Made by a program: the position numbers and the translations under genes
From: a virus
Virus record (IMG/VR): IMGVR_UViG_3300025767_000082
Location: 1 to 31,401 of that record
Strand: one strand, 5' to 3'
Length of the DNA stretch: 31,401 nucleotides
Shown: positions 4,685 through 31,059 of the stretch, piece by piece
Position numbering within the stretch: position 1 is the first letter of the stretch
Layout of the letters: each line of letters begins with the position of its first letter
The notes under the pieces: generated by a model
Database searches by the model: none
The model's input: the letters and a program-made list of their open reading frames with translations, nothing else
Told to the model about the DNA's origin: nothing

Positions 4685-6337
4685 TCATAACCAGCTAGTG
4701 TTGTCCTGTTCATACTGAGACACTCTGGTTGACCACGGCACATTAGTATTCTGTAGTTTATCCCAATGGGTTCTAAGGACTTCACAGGCAATTGCTAATC
4801 CAATCACTGTGTCATCATTACAACCGGGTGCTGCTTCAGTCTTACCTGTGGCTGTGGATATATAATCTTTTAATTCTTGTATCATAATGTTAGAGGGTAT
4901 GTTCACCTCTTCGTTCTCAATAAGAGACTTAAGGTTACCAATTATGGCTGGTTTGGAAGCTGAAGTGGTCCTAAAGCCTACACGAGAACTTTCTGTACTA
5001 GAGACATTAGCGGTCTTCTGTTGCTTGTACAGGTTAACATAGTTCATTGATTCTAGCTTTTGTATTGTAGCAACACCCATGGAGTTACTCTCTGGGCACA
5101 GAAGTGCGTTGTTGTAGTAACGTCCAAGGTAGAATAACAACTCTCCAAACAAAGAGGGGTCTATCCGGTTATCCCTGTAGAGGGCCATAACCTTTCGTTC
5201 ATTGTTTAAGACAACAGCAACTGAATAATCTAGACCTACGCCTAATGCGACATCAGCAGAGATAACGTAACTGGTATCCCACTGGGGGTACTCAAAGATA
5301 TGCAGCTTACCTTCTCGGTTATCTTCGAATTGTTTACTATTAATGTCCCAAGCACGGATACTCTCCGGGGCTTCAGGGATTAGTTTTTCTAGCTTCTCTG
5401 TATCAAAGACGTTAGAGCCGGAGACAATAAATGCCTCATCGGGGGTGGATGGGTATTCCTGACGGAACTTTAACTCACCACTCTCAGCTATCTTAAGTCT
5501 TCTCCAGTATAGTTGATCATTGTCTAATTCAAACCTTTCAACTAAAGACTCTTCATCAGCCGTTAGTATCATACCCTCAGGGGCTTCTCTACGGTATTCC
5601 TTTGTGAGGAACCATGGTAGGAAGATTGGTATGTATTCATTCTCTCCAGCTACTGCACCTTTCCACAGACGATAGAACTCACCTTGAGCGCCATTCGCCG
5701 TACTCTCAAGTATAACCTCAGTACCTTCCGCTTGAGATATACCTTGGAATAAACCTGCGAGGATCTTCTCATCATGGTTCCAAAAGGCAACCTCAGACAA
5801 GTGAGCAATCGTTGGAGTTGTACCCCTACCAGCTTCAGGTGAGCCAGCAGTGTAAAGACGGTAGCTAGCTTTAGCTTCCTTATCCTTAAAGTAAGGTGAG
5901 GATATAATGATTTCTTTTGCATTACTACGTTCCTCTTTGGGGGCTAAGTCTTCAGTCATATTCCTAATGAGGTTCTTTGACATACTGAAGAGAGCATCTG
6001 AAGTGGCACTGTCGTGGGCCATTACAACTGATCTAGAGTGTGGGGAGAAGTATGACTTCCAGTACACCCTACCTACACAGTACGTAGAGATACCCATCTG
6101 TCTTGCCTTAAGGATAATAGCCCTGACCTTACCAGTCTCTTTAGCTTGTGCAGCCAATGCATCAGTTATTCTTTGTTGGGCTTCATTCAAGACAAAAGGG
6201 ACAAAGCCCTTACTAGAGTCTTTAGTGACAATCCGTATTTGTTCCTGTGAGAACTTCTTGAAGTCTTCAGAATACTCTTTGAGTTTCTGTCTCTTCTCCT
6301 TTTCCTTCACAAGCTTTATTAATTCTTTCTTATCCAT
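4685..6337 (-). CDS. Terminase large subunit (packaging ATPase-nuclease)
   Basis: 550 aa; pumps DNA into the procapsid through the portal and cuts concatemers. The ATPase domain shows a variant Walker A KARQMGIST (residues 77-85), Walker B with catalytic Glu in IAHLSEVAFW (E182), and coupling motif ESTANG (211-216). The RNase H-like nuclease domain shows ISADVALG (D362) with D370, an acidic CPESNSMG (E416) and CNDDTVIG (D508/D509). All expected catalytic acids are present. GAGG precedes the ATG by 8 bases. It is the first minus-strand gene leaving the divergent control region, and is followed by a terminator, so its expression may be set apart from the structural genes. A candidate small subunit lies at 11452-11850 in the opposite block. 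Confidence 0.93.
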   Translation of the reverse strand: MDKKELIKLVKEKEKRQKLKEYSEDFKKFSQEQIRIVTKDSSKGFVPFVLNEAQQRITDALAAQAKETGKVRAIILKARQMGISTYCVGRVYWKSYFSPHSRSVVMAHDSATSDALFSMSKNLIRNMTEDLAPKEERSNAKEIIISSPYFKDKEAKASYRLYTAGSPEAGRGTTPTIAHLSEVAFWNHDEKILAGLFQGISQAEGTEVILESTANGAQGEFYRLWKGAVAGENEYIPIFLPWFLTKEYRREAPEGMILTADEESLVERFELDNDQLYWRRLKIAESGELKFRQEYPSTPDEAFIVSGSNVFDTEKLEKLIPEAPESIRAWDINSKQFEDNREGKLHIFEYPQWDTSYVISADVALGVGLDYSVAVVLNNERKVMALYRDNRIDPSLFGELLFYLGRYYNNALLCPESNSMGVATIQKLESMNYVNLYKQQKTANVSSTESSRVGFRTTSASKPAIIGNLKSLIENEEVNIPSNIMIQELKDYISTATGKTEAAPGCNDDTVIGLAIACEVLRTHWDKLQNTNVPWSTRVSQYEQDNTSWL

Positions 6338-6504: not shown

Positions 6505-6526
6505 CTTCTCAGAGGCTTCTCAGAGG
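6505..6526 (+). repeat. Tandem 11-bp repeat CTTCTCAGAGG x2
   Basis: Two perfect head-to-tail copies, 6505-6515 and 6516-6526, directly abutting the CCACGCAAGCGTG element. Possibly a protein-binding site or replication slippage product. Confidence 0.7.
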
Positions 6527-6541
6527 CCACGCAAGCGTGTC
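6527..6541 (+). repeat. Hairpin element copy 1 (CCACGCAAGCGTGTC)
   Basis: The core CACGC-AA-GCGTG is an inverted repeat. This copy matches the other three over 15 bases but lacks their flanking ACG and terminal G. It is followed by the pyrimidine-rich TCTTTT. See copies 2-4 at 8037, 11405 and 18784. Confidence 0.75.
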
Positions 6542-8036: not shown

Positions 8037-8055
8037 ACGCCACGCAAGCGTGTCG
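8037..8055 (+). repeat. Hairpin element copy 2
   Basis: ACGCCACGCAAGCGTGTCG, identical over these 19 bases to copies 3 and 4, followed by CTTTATAG. It lies 53 bases before the ssDNA-binding protein start, in the 325-bp stretch 7784-8108, which otherwise holds only the broken gene and a weak CCC-AATTTC-GGG hairpin near 8070. Confidence 0.8.
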
Positions 8056-8108: not shown

Positions 8109-8594
8109 ATGTTAGAATCTCCACGTAATTATTTCATCAAAGAAGCAGAAATTAACTGGGCACGTCTAGACACACCAGTATCTCCGTTCGGAACTCCACA
8201 GTACGAACTGCAAGCTGCAACTGACAATAAGGCTACGGCTAAAGAATGGAAGGAAAACCATCTAAACGTAAAAGAGAAAGACGGTAAGTTCATTGTGTCT
8301 CTCAAGCGTAAAGCCCGTAAGGCCAACGGTGAAGACAATGGCGCTCCAAAAGTAGTCAATGCCGATCTGTCTCCATTCGATAAAACAGTGATGATCGGTA
8401 ACGGATCAACTGCAAACGTTAAGATCTACCAGTACCCATACGATGTAAATGGTAAGAAGGGTGTTGGCTCATCATTAACAGCTGTGCAATTGGTAAACCT
8501 TGTAGAGTACAAGGGTGGCACTAATGACGACTTCGTAGCTTACGAGTCAGAAGGTGCAGAGCCAGCTGCTAATAAGTCAGACGACTTGTTCTAA
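8109..8594 (+). CDS. Single-stranded DNA-binding protein, T7 gp2.5-like
   Basis: 161 aa starting MLESPRNYFIKEAEINWARL, with AGAGGAAGG upstream. It has the size, beta-rich composition and very acidic C-terminal tail ending in an aromatic residue (SDDLF) that mark phage ssDNA-binding proteins of the gp2.5 type; the tail docks polymerase and helicase. The middle has basic clusters (SLKRKARKANGEDNG) and aromatic residues (KIYQYPYD) suited to DNA contact. It would coat single strands during replication and aid annealing. It is followed directly by a terminator and preceded by hairpin copy 2, so it looks like a single highly expressed unit. The call rests on tail, size and general pattern, not on an alignment. 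Confidence 0.75.
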   Translation: MLESPRNYFIKEAEINWARLDTPVSPFGTPQYELQAATDNKATAKEWKENHLNVKEKDGKFIVSLKRKARKANGEDNGAPKVVNADLSPFDKTVMIGNGSTANVKIYQYPYDVNGKKGVGSSLTAVQLVNLVEYKGGTNDDFVAYESEGAEPAANKSDDLF

Positions 8595-11404: not shown

Positions 11405-11424
11405 TACGCCACGCAAGCGTGTCG
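11405..11424 (+). repeat. Hairpin element copy 3
   Basis: TACGCCACGCAAGCGTGTCG, identical to copy 4 over 20 bases, followed by TTATTAAG. It lies 27 bases before the next start codon. Confidence 0.8.
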
Positions 11425-11451: not shown

Positions 11452-11850
11452 ATGACAGCAAGAAAGATACACCCTAATAGTTTACTTAACTTAGCACCTA
11501 GATTTAATGAGGAAAGCGCTAAGCAGGCTCAGGCTGCATCTGTAGCAGCCCGTAAGGTAAACACAGAAGCACGTAAGCGTCTTGCGTTAACAGCCGCAGA
11601 ACTCAAAATGGACGTGCAAGAACTAATGCAGGCCAACAACCTGACTGCGCTGGATGTACTTCGTCTTTCCATGGTTAAGGCTATGGCTAATAACGATATA
11701 GACCAAGCTGTTGATATCGCAAAAGCACTAGCAGAGTTTGAGACTCCAAAGCTTGGCCGTGTAGAACAGACCAACCTAGAACTCTCAACAGAAGATATGT
11801 CTGATGAAGAGCTTAACAAAAGACTTCAAGAACTTCTTAAAAAGGACTAA
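11452..11850 (+). CDS. Terminase small subunit-like protein
   Basis: The ATG at 11452 has a near-perfect AAAGGAG 5-6 bases upstream, so the open frame from 11419 is not used. 132 aa: an N-terminal basic part with PNSLLNLAPRFNEESAKQA, which is like the opening of many phage small terminases, a helical middle (TAAELKMDVQELMQ, ALDVLRLSMVKAMANND) and a tail (PKLGRVEQTNLELS, then DMSDEELNKRLQELLKK) common in small-terminase proteins. If right, it binds pac/cos DNA and guides the large subunit, although it is encoded in the opposite block. Alternatively it is a DNA-binding regulator. Confidence 0.5.
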   Translation: MTARKIHPNSLLNLAPRFNEESAKQAQAASVAARKVNTEARKRLALTAAELKMDVQELMQANNLTALDVLRLSMVKAMANNDIDQAVDIAKALAEFETPKLGRVEQTNLELSTEDMSDEELNKRLQELLKKD

Positions 11851-18783: not shown

Positions 18784-18803
18784 TACGCCACGCAAGCGTG
18801 TCG
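18784..18803 (+). repeat. Hairpin element copy 4
   Basis: TACGCCACGCAAGCGTGTCG, followed by TTTTTTAAGG. Immediately after the MazG-like stop and 18 bases before the next start. The T-run after this copy would also suit a terminator. Confidence 0.8.
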
Positions 18804-20624: not shown

Positions 20625-22709
20625 ATGAACTGGTTAGAAAACGTAGAGCTATACCTAAGATTAAAACTAACAGGGAATCCCACTCGGGATTCCTTCGGGG
20701 TAACCCTCCTCAAGAAGTATCCCGAATCTATGGATAGGCTCCAAGAGTATGGGCAAATAGCACACCTTGTTATCAGTCGGCAAGCTAAGAATGTAAGCGG
20801 TAATATACATTGTAAACTAACAGTAACAAGTATCGCTATTGGCAAGAGCATCCTCTCCACTCTAACCAAATCTAAAAGAAATGATTGGAAAGATGAGGTG
20901 CGCCTTGGTGACCTCTTCATCGAAGCATTCTACCGGCTAGGTTTTATTGATATTGTTAAACCTGAGTTCAGATCAACACGGCCCGTGGAGATTATACTCT
21001 TGGGTACATTCCCATCAGAACTCCCAGAGCCTGTCGTCAAGATGGCACTGCATGGTGTGTGGAATCAAAAGCCTAAAGATATTAATAGGGCTGAACAAAT
21101 AATCCAGTTCAACATTGATAGTCTCAAGTACACTGTACCTATCGTGAAGCGCTGGGATGAAGTCCTCGATGGACCCTTCAAGGATCTGTTAAAGACTAAA
21201 GCAATCAAGGCCGTTAACAAACTACAACAAGTGGGTTGGACTATCAACAAGGATGTACTAGCAGCTGTCGAGAGCAACCCGTATATGTTCTACAAAGAGC
21301 ACGACAAGTCTAGTGAGAACCTGTCAAAGAAGATTGACTACGCTTACACTGTAACAAAGGCCAAGGTCTTATCCAAAGAGGACAGCTTCTACTACGCACT
21401 GGATGTAGATTACCGTGGTCGTGTTTACTATGTTGAGAGCTACATGAACTTCCAAGGATCGGACCTAGCAAGGGGGCTTCTGTGCTTCTCTGAGGAGGCT
21501 TTAGTTACCCCCAGTGGGTTACGCTGGCTTAAGATACATTGTGCCTCCTCGTACAACGAGAGCTATTCTAAGGACAATATACCAGCGTGGTGTACATCGG
21601 ATTACAGATCACACCTAGATGCTGAAGGATTGGATGATATCTCTGTGGACAAGATGACCTTGAGGGACAGGGAGCTGTGGGTAGACAACAACATACTTGA
21701 AGTTTACAAAACAGCATTAACAAAAACACTACACAGCTGTGAGAAACCAGTGGCATATCTGGCAGCTTGTATAGAACTACTTAAATATAAGGAAGCCAAT
21801 GGTAATTATTACTCTCGTATGCCTGTACCAATTGATGGTAGCAACAATGGATGGCAACACCTAGGGGCGATCTCTAAGGATGTACAAACAGCTGAGCTTG
21901 TTGGTCTTGTTCCAGTCGATATTCAGAATGACTTCTATGTGCAGACAGCAAAGAAGCTAATCGAGATTACAAAGGATGTAACTCGAAGTTCAATACTGCA
22001 AGAGATGCCCATGAAGAAAATCCGAAAGGGTATCAGTAAGCGTGGGAGCATGACAAGAGCTTACTCCGCAGGCGCTCAGAAGATCGCAGAGAATATGTAT
22101 CAGGACTGTAAGGGGTATGGTTACTGTGCCGAGTATGGTATCACTGAAGAGATCTGCAAAGGTCTTGCAAGAGATCTAGTCAAGGCTATTCAGTTAGTCT
22201 GTCCCGGTCCTCTTCAAACCATGAAGTACCTACAACAACTAGCTAATGATAGGTTAGACCAAGGCTATGGTTACATGACATGGACTTCACCCTCAGGGTT
22301 CCCTGTGATCTATACCTGCAACCATCAACGCTCAGAGAAACAACGAGGGACTATTAGTGGCATCGGCCAGATCAACCACGTAGCTAAGGTAGATACCAAC
22401 GTGTCTGACCGTAGGGGTTTTATGTGTGGGATCTCACCTAACTTTATCCACTCACAAGATGCAGCGCACATGAGTTTAGTCATCGATGAATTTGATGGTG
22501 TCTTTGGGGCTGTCCACGATAGCTTCAGTACCCATGCATCGAAAGTCGATGAGCTACTTAAGATAACCAAACGAGTCTTTGTTGAGATATACAATGAAGA
22601 TAACTACTTTGATAACATCCAGAATAGGATTGAAGCAACAGCTGATCAACCAATAACTGGTAGTTTAAACATACAAGATGTGGAGAAGTCAGATTACTTC
22701 TTCGCCTAA
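20625..22709 (+). CDS. Single-subunit phage RNA polymerase, T7-like (intracellular)
   Basis: 694 aa. Motifs in order: DYRGRVYYVESYMNFQG (DxxGR, 262-266), motif A PIDGSNNGWQHLGA (D404), motif B KGISKRGSMTRAYSAG (K472, Y480), FIHSQDAAHMS (about 607-617) and motif C VHDSFSTHA (D632), equivalent to T7 D537, K631, Y639 and D812. T7's G640 is a Ser here (S481). It is about 190 residues shorter than T7 RNA polymerase, mainly N-terminal, where T7 contacts promoter DNA. It lies after primase-helicase, so it is probably made mid-infection and drives late genes. A strong hairpin lies in its 5' coding part. Confidence 0.93.
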   Translation: MNWLENVELYLRLKLTGNPTRDSFGVTLLKKYPESMDRLQEYGQIAHLVISRQAKNVSGNIHCKLTVTSIAIGKSILSTLTKSKRNDWKDEVRLGDLFIEAFYRLGFIDIVKPEFRSTRPVEIILLGTFPSELPEPVVKMALHGVWNQKPKDINRAEQIIQFNIDSLKYTVPIVKRWDEVLDGPFKDLLKTKAIKAVNKLQQVGWTINKDVLAAVESNPYMFYKEHDKSSENLSKKIDYAYTVTKAKVLSKEDSFYYALDVDYRGRVYYVESYMNFQGSDLARGLLCFSEEALVTPSGLRWLKIHCASSYNESYSKDNIPAWCTSDYRSHLDAEGLDDISVDKMTLRDRELWVDNNILEVYKTALTKTLHSCEKPVAYLAACIELLKYKEANGNYYSRMPVPIDGSNNGWQHLGAISKDVQTAELVGLVPVDIQNDFYVQTAKKLIEITKDVTRSSILQEMPMKKIRKGISKRGSMTRAYSAGAQKIAENMYQDCKGYGYCAEYGITEEICKGLARDLVKAIQLVCPGPLQTMKYLQQLANDRLDQGYGYMTWTSPSGFPVIYTCNHQRSEKQRGTISGIGQINHVAKVDTNVSDRRGFMCGISPNFIHSQDAAHMSLVIDEFDGVFGAVHDSFSTHASKVDELLKITKRVFVEIYNEDNYFDNIQNRIEATADQPITGSLNIQDVEKSDYFFA
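20674..20693 (+). other. Hairpin within the start of the RNA polymerase gene
   Basis: GGAATCCC (20674-20681) pairs perfectly with GGGATTCC (20686-20693) around ACTC, about 50 bases into the coding region. Could slow translation or be a cleavage site; it encodes ordinary text, so chance cannot be excluded. Confidence 0.4.
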
Positions 22710-23668: not shown

Positions 23669-23710
23669 AAGGGGAACCTCGGGCATTGCGCCTTGGGTTC
23701 CCCTTTTTTT
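23669..23710. terminator. Bidirectional terminator between convergent blocks
   Basis: AAGGGGAACC (23669-23678) pairs with GGTTCCCCTT (23696-23705). A run of T follows on the plus strand (23704-23712) and, read from the other side, TTATTTTATTT follows on the minus strand. It stops both ThyX-side and late-gene transcription. Confidence 0.92.
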
Positions 23711-26700
23711 TTAATGCATGTAATACTGAAACACAGACTTACCAGCGGCGTTAATATCTGACCGCAATGCTTTCTTATTATGGTTTACTTTATTACGAAG
23801 TTGAGTCAGTCTCTGATTGAGAGCCATCTCTTTGTTGAGCAACTTATGGAAGTGCCTCACCTGCTTAACAGTAGCCTGTGTCGGGTTAGTGCTAAACTTA
23901 TAACCAACATCACGCATACCCTTTTGGATGTTAGCCAGTGATTGATCCACGTTCAACACATCAACATTCTCAAGGTGTCTCTTCAAAGCTACAGGGGTTG
24001 CATCACCATACGCATCCACCTCAAGGCCAGTCAAAGATCCCATCATCTGGTGGACCTCGTTCAGACCAACATTAACTACAGAGTCTGGTGAGAGTCCCTT
24101 CAGTGTTTCTTCAAATGCTAACTCGGCTCTCTTGTTAGTATCTATAATCTCCTGCATGAAGTCCCAGTCCATGGTGGCGTTCACCCAGTTCTCATTAACA
24201 TCGTTCAACACAATATCATAACCATTAGCATCCATCTTAAAGGCATCGTAGATCTGGTAAAGATACGGATCACCACGGGAAGCATCATTAAGCCTACGCC
24301 AAGTGTTACCAGTAAATGTCAAAGCAGCAGTTGCTGCATCGATAGACTGTACCGAAGCTACAACAGAACGGTTCATTGTCTTAACACCAACCATGGGCTT
24401 GCCATTAACCAACTCAGCAGCTGCCGCAGATCGTCTAAGGGAACCATACCTTTCGATAGAACGCTGAGACCTCTCTCCCTTAGTGAACTCTGTCCACTTA
24501 ACCTCACCGACCTTACCACTTACAGAACCCCCAAGAGAGATCTCCATGCCAGTAGCAGTTGTCATTGTGAATGGTATATCTGCAAGAGCTGCATTAGCTG
24601 CCACACCTTTCAAGATTGATCTTGTTTGGATTGCCTCGTTAGACAGGACCTCGTGCAGACCAGTCGTGTACGTTGGTAATAGCAGCGCTGACAGTGATTT
24701 ATTATCTGTCACTGACTGCAATGCAGCAAACGCTTCCTGATAACCAACAAGGTTGTTACTCTCAAGTTCCTCTTGGGACATAAGGGCAGCTTCTTCGTTG
24801 ACACGGAACATAGCGTCTGAGATATCACTAACAAAAGATTTAATATCACGGCCATAACCAAAGGTCATTGTCGTGTATTTGTTGAGTGCTCTGTTGTTGA
24901 AGACCGCTCTAGCTACTGTGTAAACGTGAGGTGCAGCATCCCCCAAGAGGGACTCACTGCCGGCAATGCCGTCCACATCTATCACATCAGCTAAGGTCTC
25001 GGCGAGCTGATCCCTGATGTCACCCTTATCTAGGAGGACTTTATCCTGACTCCTCAACACACCAGTCATAAAGGCCATTGCCTTAGACCCCATGAGCATA
25101 CCCCATGCAGCCAAACCGTTAGTCTTACCATCGATGTATGCGTTAAAGAAGGAACTATGCCCAGCTGGGTTGTTGTCAACGATCACAGCTTTGTGGAACT
25201 TAACAAAGTCTAAGAGACCATCTATGTACAGAGGACCATCCTCACCCGCCTTGGCAATAGCTGCAATCAACGCACCGTCAATCTCTGGATCTAAAGCTAG
25301 TCCAGAAAACTTCGGGAAGTTTGGATCTAACAAGGACACACCGTCCTCGATGGCTTGGTATATCTCATCCGCTTTCTCAGGAGAGATCGCCTCGTCAAGT
25401 AATGCTTGTAGCCGTTTACCCCAAGAGAGAAGCTGGGGTGTTGCCCTGAGGAGCATTGCAGGTCTCTCTGAGGGTAATGCTTCTGACCCACCATCAACTA
25501 AGTGTAGTGCATACATCTGCTCCAAGTTACGATGGACCCGGTTACCACGTTTAGCAACAGCCGGTTGAGCACCTCTTGTAACAAAACGAACAAGCTTCGA
25601 GGAACTGGGATCAAACAAAGATTGCTGTGGTGCAGTACGTCCGTTAAAGCCCTGCATGTAATACGTCAAGTAGTTAATACCCTTGCGTTCTTTTGCGATA
25701 CCAAACAGGTGCTGAGCTGTTGATGTTTTGATTGATTCAAGAACAACGTTAGCACTGTACTCCGTCTGCTCTGGGTTCTCAGCGAGGGCTGCTTTCTCTT
25801 GAGCAATAAGGGCGGACATCTTTTTAGGACCAATGTTGTGCATGTTAGCAAACAAATCAACGACAGGCTGGCCACTACCGGGCTGACTAAGGAGTGCTGG
25901 CAGCAAGGTCGCTAGTGCAACCCGGCTTCTAGTACGGTCAACAATGTGGCCTACCGTGCTTTGGTTACGCATCGCTTGGTCAATCAGCCTAGTGTTTACA
26001 CGTTTCACTGGAGAACGTACAAGGGTTTTGAACTCACCAACTAGCTTACCATTAACTGGTTTAGTTTTAAGCGGGGATACTAGATTCTTACCGAAAGCCT
26101 TCTTCCGTAAAGCATCTGCTTGCTTAAAAACAATAGCACCTTCTGGGGTTAGCTGGTATACCTTTGGCTTCTTAGCATCACCGGCACTAACCACATCCTC
26201 GCTTTCACGGATAAGATCTGGGTTAACCTTGACATAGTTTGAGAGCATGGCAGCACCAAGTGCTGTCGCCTGCTCAGAGGTCAGATCAGCAGAGACCGTG
26301 GCATTGTTGTTGCGTTGGTACTCACGGCTTATCGCTTGCCCCACACGCTCAGCTACCTTAGCAGCAGGTACTTGAGTCACGAGGGCCATCTCTGGTTCTG
26401 TGACTGGTTCACCAGCAGCCTTGAGAACTACATCCTGAGTCTCAGGGATTCCCTGTAGGTAATCAGAAAGCGTGTTCTCAATGGTAGCCGAAGCTACAGT
26501 TAAGAAGGTAGGTGATAGTTTCTTATCTACCTTGCTTGGATCTAAAACACTCTGAGTTGTTTCAATAGCACTCCAAGGACCTACTTCATTAGTCCCTGTC
26601 AGAAGGTCAAGGGCAGCCACAAGTGGTCTTGCCTGCACATCAGGTGATCCTGCAAGAACCCGTGGATCTTGGTACAGACCAACACCAACTGCCCCTGAGT

Positions 26701-27097
26701 CAAAGGCATCACGTAGCGCCCTCGCTCTAACGAACAGACCGTTATTGCCTTCTGTTGCAGATCTCTTAGAGTCTGCTTTGTACTTGTAAATGTTTGAGGG
26801 ACCTCCCGGCGCAGCTAAGTTTTCCCTAATACCGGGAAGCGCTTCTGCTTCTTGCTGAGCTTTTATTGCCGCCGCTCTCTCAGCTTCTGCGGCGATACCT
26901 TCAAGCACCCCCGCTTCAACAAGAGGCTCTGTCCCTACGGTAGGCGCTGTGGCAACTGAGGGTTGCTGTACAGGCGCTTCTGCTTCTTGTATTGGGGTTA
27001 CCTCAGGGGTAACACCAAGTGTCTCTACGGGTGTTTCAAAGCCCTCAGAGGGCACCGGCATACCGGGCCTCCCCTGAGCTGTAATTATCTTACCCAT
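23711..27097 (-). CDS. Putative virion RNA polymerase (single-subunit, N4 vRNAP-like in concept)
   Basis: 1128 aa. Residues about 20-95 are Ala/Pro/Glu/Val-rich and probably disordered. From about 475 the single-subunit RNA polymerase landmarks appear in order: FNGRTAPQQSLFDPSSSKL (R487; T7 R425 context), motif A FFNAYIDGKTNGLAAWG (D656), motif B RALNKYTTMTFGYG (R736, K740, Y748, G749; T7 R627, K631, Y639, G640 with identical internal spacing), SVQSIDAATAALTF (D920; T7 HSQD box), and motif C YQIYDAFKMD (D951; T7 D812). It is encoded with late giant proteins, not with replication genes, so I infer it is packaged and ejected to transcribe first genes. The C-terminus is basic and helical. AAGGAG precedes the ATG and overlaps the end of the gene before it. 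Overall similarity is low; function needs biochemical proof. Confidence 0.75.
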   Translation of the reverse strand: MGKIITAQGRPGMPVPSEGFETPVETLGVTPEVTPIQEAEAPVQQPSVATAPTVGTEPLVEAGVLEGIAAEAERAAAIKAQQEAEALPGIRENLAAPGGPSNIYKYKADSKRSATEGNNGLFVRARALRDAFDSGAVGVGLYQDPRVLAGSPDVQARPLVAALDLLTGTNEVGPWSAIETTQSVLDPSKVDKKLSPTFLTVASATIENTLSDYLQGIPETQDVVLKAAGEPVTEPEMALVTQVPAAKVAERVGQAISREYQRNNNATVSADLTSEQATALGAAMLSNYVKVNPDLIRESEDVVSAGDAKKPKVYQLTPEGAIVFKQADALRKKAFGKNLVSPLKTKPVNGKLVGEFKTLVRSPVKRVNTRLIDQAMRNQSTVGHIVDRTRSRVALATLLPALLSQPGSGQPVVDLFANMHNIGPKKMSALIAQEKAALAENPEQTEYSANVVLESIKTSTAQHLFGIAKERKGINYLTYYMQGFNGRTAPQQSLFDPSSSKLVRFVTRGAQPAVAKRGNRVHRNLEQMYALHLVDGGSEALPSERPAMLLRATPQLLSWGKRLQALLDEAISPEKADEIYQAIEDGVSLLDPNFPKFSGLALDPEIDGALIAAIAKAGEDGPLYIDGLLDFVKFHKAVIVDNNPAGHSSFFNAYIDGKTNGLAAWGMLMGSKAMAFMTGVLRSQDKVLLDKGDIRDQLAETLADVIDVDGIAGSESLLGDAAPHVYTVARAVFNNRALNKYTTMTFGYGRDIKSFVSDISDAMFRVNEEAALMSQEELESNNLVGYQEAFAALQSVTDNKSLSALLLPTYTTGLHEVLSNEAIQTRSILKGVAANAALADIPFTMTTATGMEISLGGSVSGKVGEVKWTEFTKGERSQRSIERYGSLRRSAAAAELVNGKPMVGVKTMNRSVVASVQSIDAATAALTFTGNTWRRLNDASRGDPYLYQIYDAFKMDANGYDIVLNDVNENWVNATMDWDFMQEIIDTNKRAELAFEETLKGLSPDSVVNVGLNEVHQMMGSLTGLEVDAYGDATPVALKRHLENVDVLNVDQSLANIQKGMRDVGYKFSTNPTQATVKQVRHFHKLLNKEMALNQRLTQLRNKVNHNKKALRSDINAAGKSVFQYYMH

Positions 27098-27099
27098 GT

Positions 27100-30000
27100 T
27101 TACTCCTTATTATATCCCCATTCATCAGCTGGTTGAGTTATATTCTCAACAAGTGTATCACGTAGCTTTGGTAGGCTACCGAGAGGTGTTAGTTTAGCAG
27201 CAGCCTTAGCTGCCTTGGTGTAGTCACCCTCGATGAGGGAACCTGTTGCTGTCATAAGTTTATCTAAAGTACCAAGAGCTGGTGCTTCCCCAGATGTTTT
27301 ATTCCAAGCCCAGTCAGCATAACCCTGAGATCGAGACTCATACATTGGTGCTATAAAATCAATAACACGCTGGCCAGTACCGAGAAGACCAGATGAAGAC
27401 ACAGCCCTCCGGGCTTTCTCCATATCGTCAAGGTATGGGTTTTCTGTACCCCACTTCATCCTATCCTTTAATTCCTGAGAGGCATACCCCATAGCAATCA
27501 TGAGGACCATCATAGAAAATGCATGGTATTTCATTTGAGGACTACCACGTTTGACATACTCTCCCCAAAGCTTAGGGATAAATGTAGATTGGAAAACAGC
27601 AATAAAGCCTGAGAACTGAGTGAACATTGCAAACCGAGGATCATGATAGATCATAGGTCGGTTAGCAGTTGTTGGCATCATGATGGCATCATTGATAAAT
27701 GCAAAGGTACCATTAGTTATTTCATTTCTCAGCTGCTCTGCCTCTACTTCTGTCAAGGGATAGTTAAACGCTTGTTTCTTAGCTAGCTCTGTAAACAACT
27801 CAACATTAATGTGCAGGTTGCGTAAGTGCTCCTCAGCTTCCTCAACAGCTTTAGTCTTGGGAGTGCTGCTATCCCACAGGTAGATTGTCTCTGCGTGGTT
27901 CAGCATATAGTCCCAAGCAATAGATGCACGGACTGCCCTTGTCATTTGGGTCCAACCTTGCAAACCGTTCCACTTAAAGAACTGAGAGATTAGGTTTTGT
28001 TTCAATGCATTGGTTTCAGTCACACCTGTTTTAGATGCAGCTCCAGCTTCTTGCTCGTTGTAACCAAGCTCTTGGATAATACGCTGACCGTTAGTTTCAG
28101 TTTTGGCTAGCTCTACCCTAGTGATTGTGGAGAATATCTCCTTACCACCATTATAGAACATAGTCCCAAGTTCAACACCGGCTGCCTTCAAACCACCCTT
28201 ACCGAATATCTGTTGGTTAGTTAATCCTTTAAACAAAAGCATAAGCTCTACGGTAGAACTAACAGTTGCTGTACTCAAGGCTCCAAGAATCGTAAAGGTT
28301 AAGAAGTTCTTTTGGATCTTCTGTGCCAACTTACCAGCGTCTGTGGTTGCCCTCTTGTAGTTACCTGACTCAGCATCAAGGTAATCCTTCATCTTCTTAG
28401 CGATCCTAATAAGATCAGCTTCAGATACGCCCTCCGCCCTTGCCTTCTCTAGCTGTGCTGCGATAACACTACCGTTAATACCTACATACTTTTGATATGC
28501 AACAAAACGTGCAGCAGACTTAATAGCGTAGTTGACATTTGTGAAGATGTCCTGCTCTAAGAACTTATCAAATGCAGGATTCTCAGAGAGCCCCAAGGTC
28601 CTTGCCCTATGTGAGCCGGGTATTGGGGTACCGTCTGTTACCGAGAATGCCTTATCATCAGGTAATAAACCATCGATGTCATTCTTGTTAGGGTTCTCAA
28701 TAATGTTAGTTGCAATATCATTAGCCATTGCTTCAGTCATCCCGTGGGACTCACCATACTCTGACATTAAGGCGGTTATAAAACCAGCCCTGTCACCGGC
28801 AACAGCGTTCTTGTTAAGTGATTTAAACTTAGAGAAGTAGTTACTAATCTCACCAACATCACCATACTTTTGTTGTTCCTTCAACATACTATCAGACAAT
28901 CGTTGTAGTCTTTCAATCTCCTTAATATAGAGTTCCCTGTTGGGCATCTCTGGTATCTTAGATGTATCGAGAACACCCTTGTCGTTAACAGCGTCCCGCC
29001 AGATATTGTAGAACTGACGGCTTAAGAGTTCCCTTTTCTTACGGCTAGGTCTGATACCCCCATTAATGGTTGAATAAAACTCTGTTGGTTTTGTGTAGGC
29101 GTTCTCCCACTTTGCAACTAACAAGTGTTTAAAAGATTCAAAATCATTACCACTGTATGTTGTTTGAAGACCACCACCAAACGATGCAGCTAACTTACGA
29201 ATAGATGGAGAGATATTTTTCAACCGATCTAAGAATATGAAACGAGTAGATCCACGCCAGAAGCGAGTGCTTGAGACAGCCACATCAAACACGGTGTCCG
29301 CCTTTGTACGTTCGCCTTTAGGCTCTTCTTTCTCAGCAAGCTCATTAAAGATATTCTTATCAGGAGATACAGCAGCTGCCCTTCGAGCTTCCTCTAGGTT
29401 CTCATCTATTGTAGGTATGAACCCATTGTTAGTTCTCCTTTCTTCTTCGGCCCACTTACCAGAGTCGGACAAACCACTACCGTCTGCTTCAGTACCTCCC
29501 CAAATAGCTGCCTCCCACTGGGCTTGGTTGGTCACACCACTGGCTGTCCCTAAAGAACCACCAAGGGCAGCACCAGCCACAGCAGCTTGGGTCATACGGT
29601 TTAACGCCTCATTAAAGTCAAATGAAGAATCCTCAATGTGAGCCGCAGTATAACCAATCAGTTCCTGAACCGCTTCAGTAGCGCCCTCAGTTACAGTACC
29701 AGCAGCACCACTCTTTAAGATATCTTTAATGGCATCACGACTTCTTAGTTGATCTTTAAGAATACGTGAAGCGTCTGTGGAGATACCTGCAAGCTGTGAC
29801 TTAGACATTTGAATAACATCTTTCAGTGCAGCCTGAGTCATTCCTTCAGTGACTTCAATCCCAAGCTCTTTAGCTTTCTTAATTGCTAATTGCTCAGCAG
29901 CAGCGTTAAGCATTTTCTGTGGGGTATCAAGCTTACCAAAACCACCAATAAGTTTAGTAACACCAAACAAATCTAAAGCACCTTGGATTGCACCACCACC

Positions 30001-31059
30001 AACAGCAAGTGCCCAGTTCTTAGCATTATCTGCTTGTTCGTTCCAGATAGACCCAGCATACACGCTTGCAGGAACCAGTAAAGAAAGACCACCTGTATAC
30101 GGGGCTGCTACCAAGGAAGCTGTTGACATAGCCATGTACGGTAATGACATACCTGCGTTATTACTTACAAACTCCCAAGCATCTCCAGCGCTATCTACAT
30201 CCTGATAGTCCAAAAGAACTTGAGCACGGTTAGCCATCTCGGTACCTTTGCGGTAGACTCCGTTTTCACCAAACTCCTTAACAGAATCAAGACCTAAAGT
30301 GTCTCCAAGCATTTCAGCAACACCGTATGAAGCCTCAGCAAAACCAACCATCGCAGCCCCTACGGAACTAGAGAAAGGATTGTACGCTTGGTTCTTTAAG
30401 TTCCTATCCTTGTGCCGGAACATAACTGTATCCGTTAAGTACTTGCTTGGGTTAGCAGCGTACTGTTGTTCGTTGAGTGCTAGTTCTTTAAACTTAGTTG
30501 CATCGTAACCCTCAGCTTCTCGTGCTGCATTAACTTGAGCGGCTAGCTCATCAAACAAAACTTGATCTTCACCTCTAGGAACAGTGTCCCCCATCCACTT
30601 AGATACTGCAATAGCTGTAAGGTCTTCCTTCGTCACCCCCTCGACAGGTTCAAACACACCAGACGTCAGTAGCTTTGTGATGAAGTCTTCACCTTTGTGA
30701 TTGACAAGACGTCCTGTCCTGCGCCCAAATGCTGCATCAATACCAGTATCTTTAATTTCTGTATAGCCATGCTTAGTTGCAAAATCCTTAACAGCCCCTA
30801 AGGCTGCTAAACCTCCTGCGGTTCCAGTTTTCTCTACCCATTCTCCAGATCTATCTTGTACCCACTTAGCTACCTCAGGTGCATCAAACCCTTGAAGACG
30901 TACATTGGGGCCCCCATCGGAGGCCACAACAGTATCTGCATCTAACCAATCGGAAACCACTAAGGGTTCCTCGATTGGCGCTTTTTTAATAGAGAGGTCT
31001 TGGCTAGCTTGTACTTGTTGGGCTTCTTGAAGAATCCCTTGTAATACATTATCAACCAT
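27100..31059 (-). CDS. Giant ejection protein with N-terminal staphylococcal-nuclease domain
   Basis: 1319 aa. Residues about 33-140 form an SNase-like domain: LDADTV (D40, D42), VRLQGFDAPE (R54, D59, E62) and FGRRTGRLV (R113), matching the nuclease residues D21, R35, D40, E43 and R87. Several hydrophobic helices follow (about 303-337, 349-372, and later GAALGGSLGTASGV, FTILGALSTATVSST and AFSMMVLMIAMGYAS). This size, layout and position fit T7 gp16-type internal virion proteins that form an envelope-crossing channel, but T7 gp16 begins with a lytic transglycosylase whereas this starts with a nuclease-like domain. GAGG precedes the start by 8 bases; the stop overlaps the next gene's ribosome site. 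Confidence 0.75.
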   Translation of the reverse strand: MVDNVLQGILQEAQQVQASQDLSIKKAPIEEPLVVSDWLDADTVVASDGGPNVRLQGFDAPEVAKWVQDRSGEWVEKTGTAGGLAALGAVKDFATKHGYTEIKDTGIDAAFGRRTGRLVNHKGEDFITKLLTSGVFEPVEGVTKEDLTAIAVSKWMGDTVPRGEDQVLFDELAAQVNAAREAEGYDATKFKELALNEQQYAANPSKYLTDTVMFRHKDRNLKNQAYNPFSSSVGAAMVGFAEASYGVAEMLGDTLGLDSVKEFGENGVYRKGTEMANRAQVLLDYQDVDSAGDAWEFVSNNAGMSLPYMAMSTASLVAAPYTGGLSLLVPASVYAGSIWNEQADNAKNWALAVGGGAIQGALDLFGVTKLIGGFGKLDTPQKMLNAAAEQLAIKKAKELGIEVTEGMTQAALKDVIQMSKSQLAGISTDASRILKDQLRSRDAIKDILKSGAAGTVTEGATEAVQELIGYTAAHIEDSSFDFNEALNRMTQAAVAGAALGGSLGTASGVTNQAQWEAAIWGGTEADGSGLSDSGKWAEEERRTNNGFIPTIDENLEEARRAAAVSPDKNIFNELAEKEEPKGERTKADTVFDVAVSSTRFWRGSTRFIFLDRLKNISPSIRKLAASFGGGLQTTYSGNDFESFKHLLVAKWENAYTKPTEFYSTINGGIRPSRKKRELLSRQFYNIWRDAVNDKGVLDTSKIPEMPNRELYIKEIERLQRLSDSMLKEQQKYGDVGEISNYFSKFKSLNKNAVAGDRAGFITALMSEYGESHGMTEAMANDIATNIIENPNKNDIDGLLPDDKAFSVTDGTPIPGSHRARTLGLSENPAFDKFLEQDIFTNVNYAIKSAARFVAYQKYVGINGSVIAAQLEKARAEGVSEADLIRIAKKMKDYLDAESGNYKRATTDAGKLAQKIQKNFLTFTILGALSTATVSSTVELMLLFKGLTNQQIFGKGGLKAAGVELGTMFYNGGKEIFSTITRVELAKTETNGQRIIQELGYNEQEAGAASKTGVTETNALKQNLISQFFKWNGLQGWTQMTRAVRASIAWDYMLNHAETIYLWDSSTPKTKAVEEAEEHLRNLHINVELFTELAKKQAFNYPLTEVEAEQLRNEITNGTFAFINDAIMMPTTANRPMIYHDPRFAMFTQFSGFIAVFQSTFIPKLWGEYVKRGSPQMKYHAFSMMVLMIAMGYASQELKDRMKWGTENPYLDDMEKARRAVSSSGLLGTGQRVIDFIAPMYESRSQGYADWAWNKTSGEAPALGTLDKLMTATGSLIEGDYTKAAKAAAKLTPLGSLPKLRDTLVENITQPADEWGYNKE

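Follow-up and report, generated by a model that had tools for sequence, protein, structure and literature searches.

Phage N4 carries a giant RNA polymerase (~3500 aa) in its particle and injects the enzyme together with its DNA, and this polymerase is self-inhibited. The virion RNA polymerases (vRNAPs) described as N4-like are giant (2842-3820 aa), with N- and C-terminal domains fused to the core, and the hallmark vRNAP of the Schitoviridae has at least 2500 aa and is encoded in a genome of ~70 kb. In published work, these enzymes have been tied to N4-like phages and fusions (PMC5512222), and a survey for hidden virion RNAPs, which used ExDGxxxG as motif A, discarded everything below 2500 aa (PMC10654107). 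For the N4 enzyme, K437 and R440 are described to hold the initiating NTP, and the early N4 hairpins have stems of 5-7 bp and loops of 3 bases (PMC4496689).

The DNA analysed here (the window) is a stretch of 31,401 nucleotides from IMG/VR record IMGVR_UViG_3300025767_000082 and contains no ORF of Schitoviridae vRNAP size. On the minus strand, at 23711-27097, it encodes a 1128-aa protein without cysteines which, as judged from the ORF, profiles and predicted fold, is a compact virion-type single-subunit RNA polymerase, unfused and a third of the ~3500 aa of its N4 counterpart. A large cysteine-free protein has likewise been proposed as putative vRNAP of Stenotrophomonas phage StenR_269, but in the part of that report considered here the arguments are how large the protein is and what it is composed of, and neither motifs nor a profile match nor a confident fold is offered (PMC10747016).

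The initial annotation had read a polymerase core from positions 24218-25660, which encode residues 480-960 of the protein, and translation of the ORF revealed the named residues to be where it had placed them, all on the minus strand: the GR-motif arginine R487 (25637-25639), motif A, D656-G-K-x-N-G661 (25115-25132), motif B or O helix, R736-x3-K740-x7-Y748-G749 (24851-24892), D920 of the SIDAA box (24338-24340) and D951 of motif C (24245-24247). The proposed T7-like spacing was also found, with 84 residues from D656 to K740 versus 94 from D537 to K631 in T7 RNAP, and with identical gaps in motif B. In a profile alignment blind to this assignment, each residue fell on the expected catalytic residue, namely R487 on N4 R424 and T7 R425, D656 on N4 D559 and T7 D537, the four motif B residues on N4 R666, K670, Y678 and G679 and T7 R627, K631, Y639 and G640, D920 on N4 D929 and T7 D787, and D951 on N4 D951 and T7 D812. 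Two residues without mention in the initial annotation, K501 and R504 (25586-25597, minus strand), aligned with K437 and R440 of N4, the pair involved in initiating-NTP binding; in T7 RNAP, D438 stands opposite K501 and K441 opposite R504.

For profile comparison by hhalign, the polymerase family was represented by a 52-sequence alignment. The N4 mini-vRNAP was matched at 98.9% (E 1.2e-17) over 813 columns, with residues 186-1091 lying on 139-1095, and T7 RNAP at 97.8% (E 7.7e-13) over 640 columns. The core is thus aligned nearly end to end with N4 gp50/mini-vRNAP, R424, K437, R440, D559, R666, K670, Y678, D929 and D951 of which are all matched, and cysteine is absent from both proteins. All controls scored below 3%, and six other protein families of the phage group, DNA polymerase included, together with reversed profiles, did not exceed 0.7%. 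DNA polymerase A as a closer family was ruled out (0.4%). Among the PHROGs, the RNA polymerase family phrog_414 matched residues 636-853 (E 3e-7), and for one relative the matching PHROG was 'virion RNA polymerase' itself, with an E value of 3.9e-11. The better and longer alignment to the N4 mini-vRNAP than to T7 RNAP, along with the shared K437/R440 pair, bears out the earlier proposal of an N4-type enzyme of much smaller size. The GR motif, motifs A, B and C and the overall fold are shared with T7 RNAP and the PF00940 single-subunit RNAPs. The window protein nevertheless gave no Pfam match, no meaningful PDB sequence match and nothing useful by tblastn in phage GenBank records, which would explain the label 'hypothetical' on such proteins.

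Structure prediction from the single sequence gave an unusable model (pLDDT 37). With the family alignment, AlphaFold2 returned a model with a pLDDT of 79.1 and a pTM of 0.79, and a Foldseek search with it revealed the right-hand polymerase fold, with yeast mitochondrial RNAP (8e-17) and T7 RNAP (1e-16) being matched at prob 1.00; at the level of the fold, the model thus passes the structural check by which the initial annotation would have been refuted. The N4 mini-vRNAP promoter complex 3c3l was found with an E value of 1e-13 and a query TM-score of 0.46, the highest among the best 50 matches listed, and the viral models found include N4-like vRNAPs. With moderate TM-scores and high RMSDs over long range, the match in domain arrangement is only a rough one.

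Family-wide conservation was evaluated on loci collected from two scans, one with the neighbouring T7-like RNAP (60 loci) and one with the polymerase family (71 loci). R487, K501, R504, D656, G657, G661, Y748, G749, D920 and D951 were invariant in 65 non-identical IMG/VR homologues, while K740 was kept in 62 and N660 in 64 of these; R736 is variable (37 R, 14 K and 1 S in 52 sequences). Motif A differs from that of N4 in that the glutamate of ExDG, E557, is replaced by Y654, so that the window protein does not conform to the motif A of the published survey. Complete relatives span 1116-1385 aa, nearly all being free of cysteine, and dozens of podophages that are not N4-like encode the compact polymerase. 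The longest relatives reach ~60 kb, and the nearest contig, of 55.4 kb, is near-identical to the window, differing from it at 19 positions within the 19.7 kb compared from its start. The identification as RNA polymerase made in the initial annotation is strongly supported by the profile matches, by the predicted structure with its fold search and by the conservation across the family. We conclude that, by homology and modelled fold, this large late protein is a divergent single-subunit RNA polymerase whose nearest relative is the N4 virion enzyme; DNA-templated RNA synthesis is its predicted activity.

The early promoters of N4 are template-strand hairpins, and elements resembling these hairpins precede early genes of the window. 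A 16-base element, GCCACGCAAGCGTGTC, occurs in four exact copies at 6526, 8039, 11408 and 18787, all of them intergenic and on the early strand; searching the late strand of this DNA turned up none. The candidate hairpin promoters, CACGC-AA-GCGTG, lie on the plus strand at 6528-6539, at 8041-8052 upstream of the gene for an ssDNA-binding protein (8109-8594), at 11410-11421 upstream of a gene at 11452-11850, and at 18789-18800 ahead of the genes for the primase/helicase and the T7-like RNAP. A sister genome (G002) has three repeats, collected by sequence alone, of the forms CACAC-TAC-GTGTG, CACAC-TTC-GTGTG and CACGC-TAT-GCGTG; TCTCTTTAA comes after every one of them, and one stem pair is altered on both sides; two more genomes, G003 and G004, carry additional stem variants. 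Such paired changes between genomes fit recognition of a folded strand. The count of co-variation over 14 elements is partly circular because the elements of G003 and G004 were picked as hairpins; independent support comes from the repeats of the window and G002, from the excess over shuffles and from an IMG/VR scan. Hairpin counts on the early strand were above all 100 shuffles in these four genomes, and the complementary strand over the regions counted had 0-1. A blind scan of 2.9 million viral contigs for the 16-mer located it, followed by T-rich sequence like TCTCTTTA, in contigs with terL, portal or DNA polymerase genes of this group; matches in unrelated contigs were flanked differently. 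The full element is restricted to the phages of this group. No hairpin set of this type was seen in eight further genomes from the wider group, and the stability of the window elements alone, folded as single-stranded DNA, was not unusual.

It is slightly more likely than not that these elements are promoters of the virion RNAP. A serious alternative, somewhat less likely than not, is that they serve the T7-like RNAP or act as RNA leaders or as terminators, which would concern the promoter part only and be compatible with a virion RNAP. Two copies score as weak terminators, and short repeated promoters are also used by T7-like RNAPs; yet the copies are situated just upstream of genes and a steady T tract is absent, and the paired changes between genomes, together with the failure to find any late-strand copy in the window, also speak against this explanation. 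Compared to N4 early promoters, the spacer from hairpin to purine looks longer and the loops are often AA instead of three bases. The hairpin-reading region of N4 (W129/K114/R119) is not covered by the alignment, and D901/R904 lack conserved counterparts, so that promoter recognition must differ in detail. As a separate observation, GTTGCTTCGCAAC, which is the hairpin at phage N4 position 90, is repeated four times almost in tandem in the early region of G004 (L165/L166), at ~1106-1264 of the two loci joined. Matches to sigma-70-like promoters numbered 25 between positions 6300 and 24500 of the window, fewer than the 34.5 in shuffles, a deficit that is weakly suggestive of little host-promoter use there.

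A second RNA polymerase, a canonical T7-like enzyme of 694 aa (20625-22709, plus strand; PF00940, E 4e-57), is encoded convergently to the virion-type gene, and an inverted repeat with a T tract read from the sequence between the two gene blocks (23670-23713) is a likely terminator. This convergent pair was present in every family locus spanning the junction. Starting with terL (6337), the late block extends to the left over portal, scaffold and capsid genes and, as it seems, past the contig end as far as the polymerase, its last gene; as for the N4 vRNAP, it is the final gene of the late block and convergent with the early/middle genes. N4 differs in its second RNAP, a gp15/gp16 heterodimer, whereas a one-chain T7-like RNAP is found here, in a genome of ~55-60 kb. 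Next to the polymerase gene, a cysteine-free virion-type protein of 1319 aa (27100-31059, minus strand) matches the virion structural protein family phrog_6958 (E 6e-28) and is likely co-ejected. Neither in the polymerase nor in this neighbour were the NTD, the CTD or gp51 of N4 found with a single-sequence N4 query. The start of the 1319-aa protein (DADTV...VRLQGFDAPEV) resembles by eye a staphylococcal-nuclease motif, for which Pfam gave no match (E up to 1). Phages tf and KIT05 have the neighbouring virion protein in common; compared by annotation only, they have no vRNAP-like gene annotated.

Packaging of the polymerase in the virion is likely, given its position as the last late gene, the lack of cysteine, the cysteine-free virion-type neighbours and the second, canonical RNAP for later transcription. 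That it is an active single-subunit RNAP made during infection for late transcription and left unpackaged is unlikely: a phage RNAP is in use in this genome anyway, and fold and residues are silent on timing, but the gene closes the late virion block, its product is cysteine-free like the ejection-type neighbours and the N4 vRNAP, and its nearest relative is a known virion enzyme. We consider a compact, unfused N4-type virion RNAP outside the Schitoviridae to be the probable reading with good confidence. The enzyme would be produced late, packaged with the neighbouring cysteine-free ejection-type proteins and delivered into the host together with the phage DNA, where it would begin early transcription at the hairpin promoters before the early genes. 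One of these hairpins precedes the operon in which the canonical T7-like RNAP is encoded, and this second enzyme would then serve the later genes. In three relatives (L089, L092 and L199), the T7-like RNAP gene is seemingly present as two ORFs (342 + 388 aa) with a gap of ~330 bases, possibly due to an intron or inserted element.

A related branch is represented by the cultured Roseobacter phage CRP-7 (MK613349), whose gp33, a 'hypothetical protein', occupies the same gene position and was matched by profile at 99.3% (E 4e-20). The published description of CRP-7 names one RNAP, ORF30 (PMC6918029). In gp33, the motif A Asp, YG and the motif C Asp are retained, whereas the GR arginine and the equivalents of K501/R504 are gone and K and R of motif B are swapped. 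The CRP-7-type set comprises L003 (17859-21566) and its relatives L035-L064, and in L044, L048 and L051 the motif C Asp is changed to N. Taken alone, the branch matches the N4 and T7 profiles poorly (10% and 23%), and the alignment there is less certain. The active site looks partly degenerate and this branch may be losing catalysis; the motif losses in L003 and L035-L064 suggest that a polymerase in decay has been retained for a place in the virion. Given these losses, a role other than catalysis is also conceivable for the protein. For the window protein itself, it is quite improbable that an ejection or structural protein has retained the polymerase fold and lost polymerisation: the CRP-7-type homologues without GR arginine and K/R pair, three of them with N for the motif C Asp, set a precedent, but the window's own clade keeps every catalytic residue, all being invariant over 15-37% identity. 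That an alpha-helical virion protein of unrelated origin shows the motifs by chance, as the missing Pfam and meaningful PDB sequence matches might suggest, is refuted by the invariance in 65 sequences, the profile and fold matches and the negative controls, and its probability is negligible.

Returning to the N4-type virion RNAP, its compact, unfused form in phages of ~55-60 kb appears to be undescribed in the literature that can be searched without subscription. It is an evenly balanced proposition that such enzymes are widespread among two-polymerase podophages of a large group outside the Schitoviridae, with one clade having co-varying hairpin promoters and the CRP-7 side branch having decayed to a non-catalytic ejection protein. 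A stand-alone enzyme of ~1100 aa would reveal the parts needed for injection and hairpin recognition and would bear on why the polymerase of N4 is giant and self-inhibited. The small natural polymerase and its candidate promoters make up a testable pair and, if the reading is true, a natural 'mini-vRNAP'.

The contigs of the relatives L198 and L199 had been assigned to MAGs of Bacteroidetes and Dehalococcoidia; these are probably phage contigs, and the bins are no proof of hosts. Two longer relatives, L122 (9152-13309) and L114 (9353-13453), showed a weak match to the NADAR domain at approximately residues 965-1074 (E 1e-4 and 1e-3, below the Pfam cut-off), possibly reflecting a domain inserted into the polymerase.
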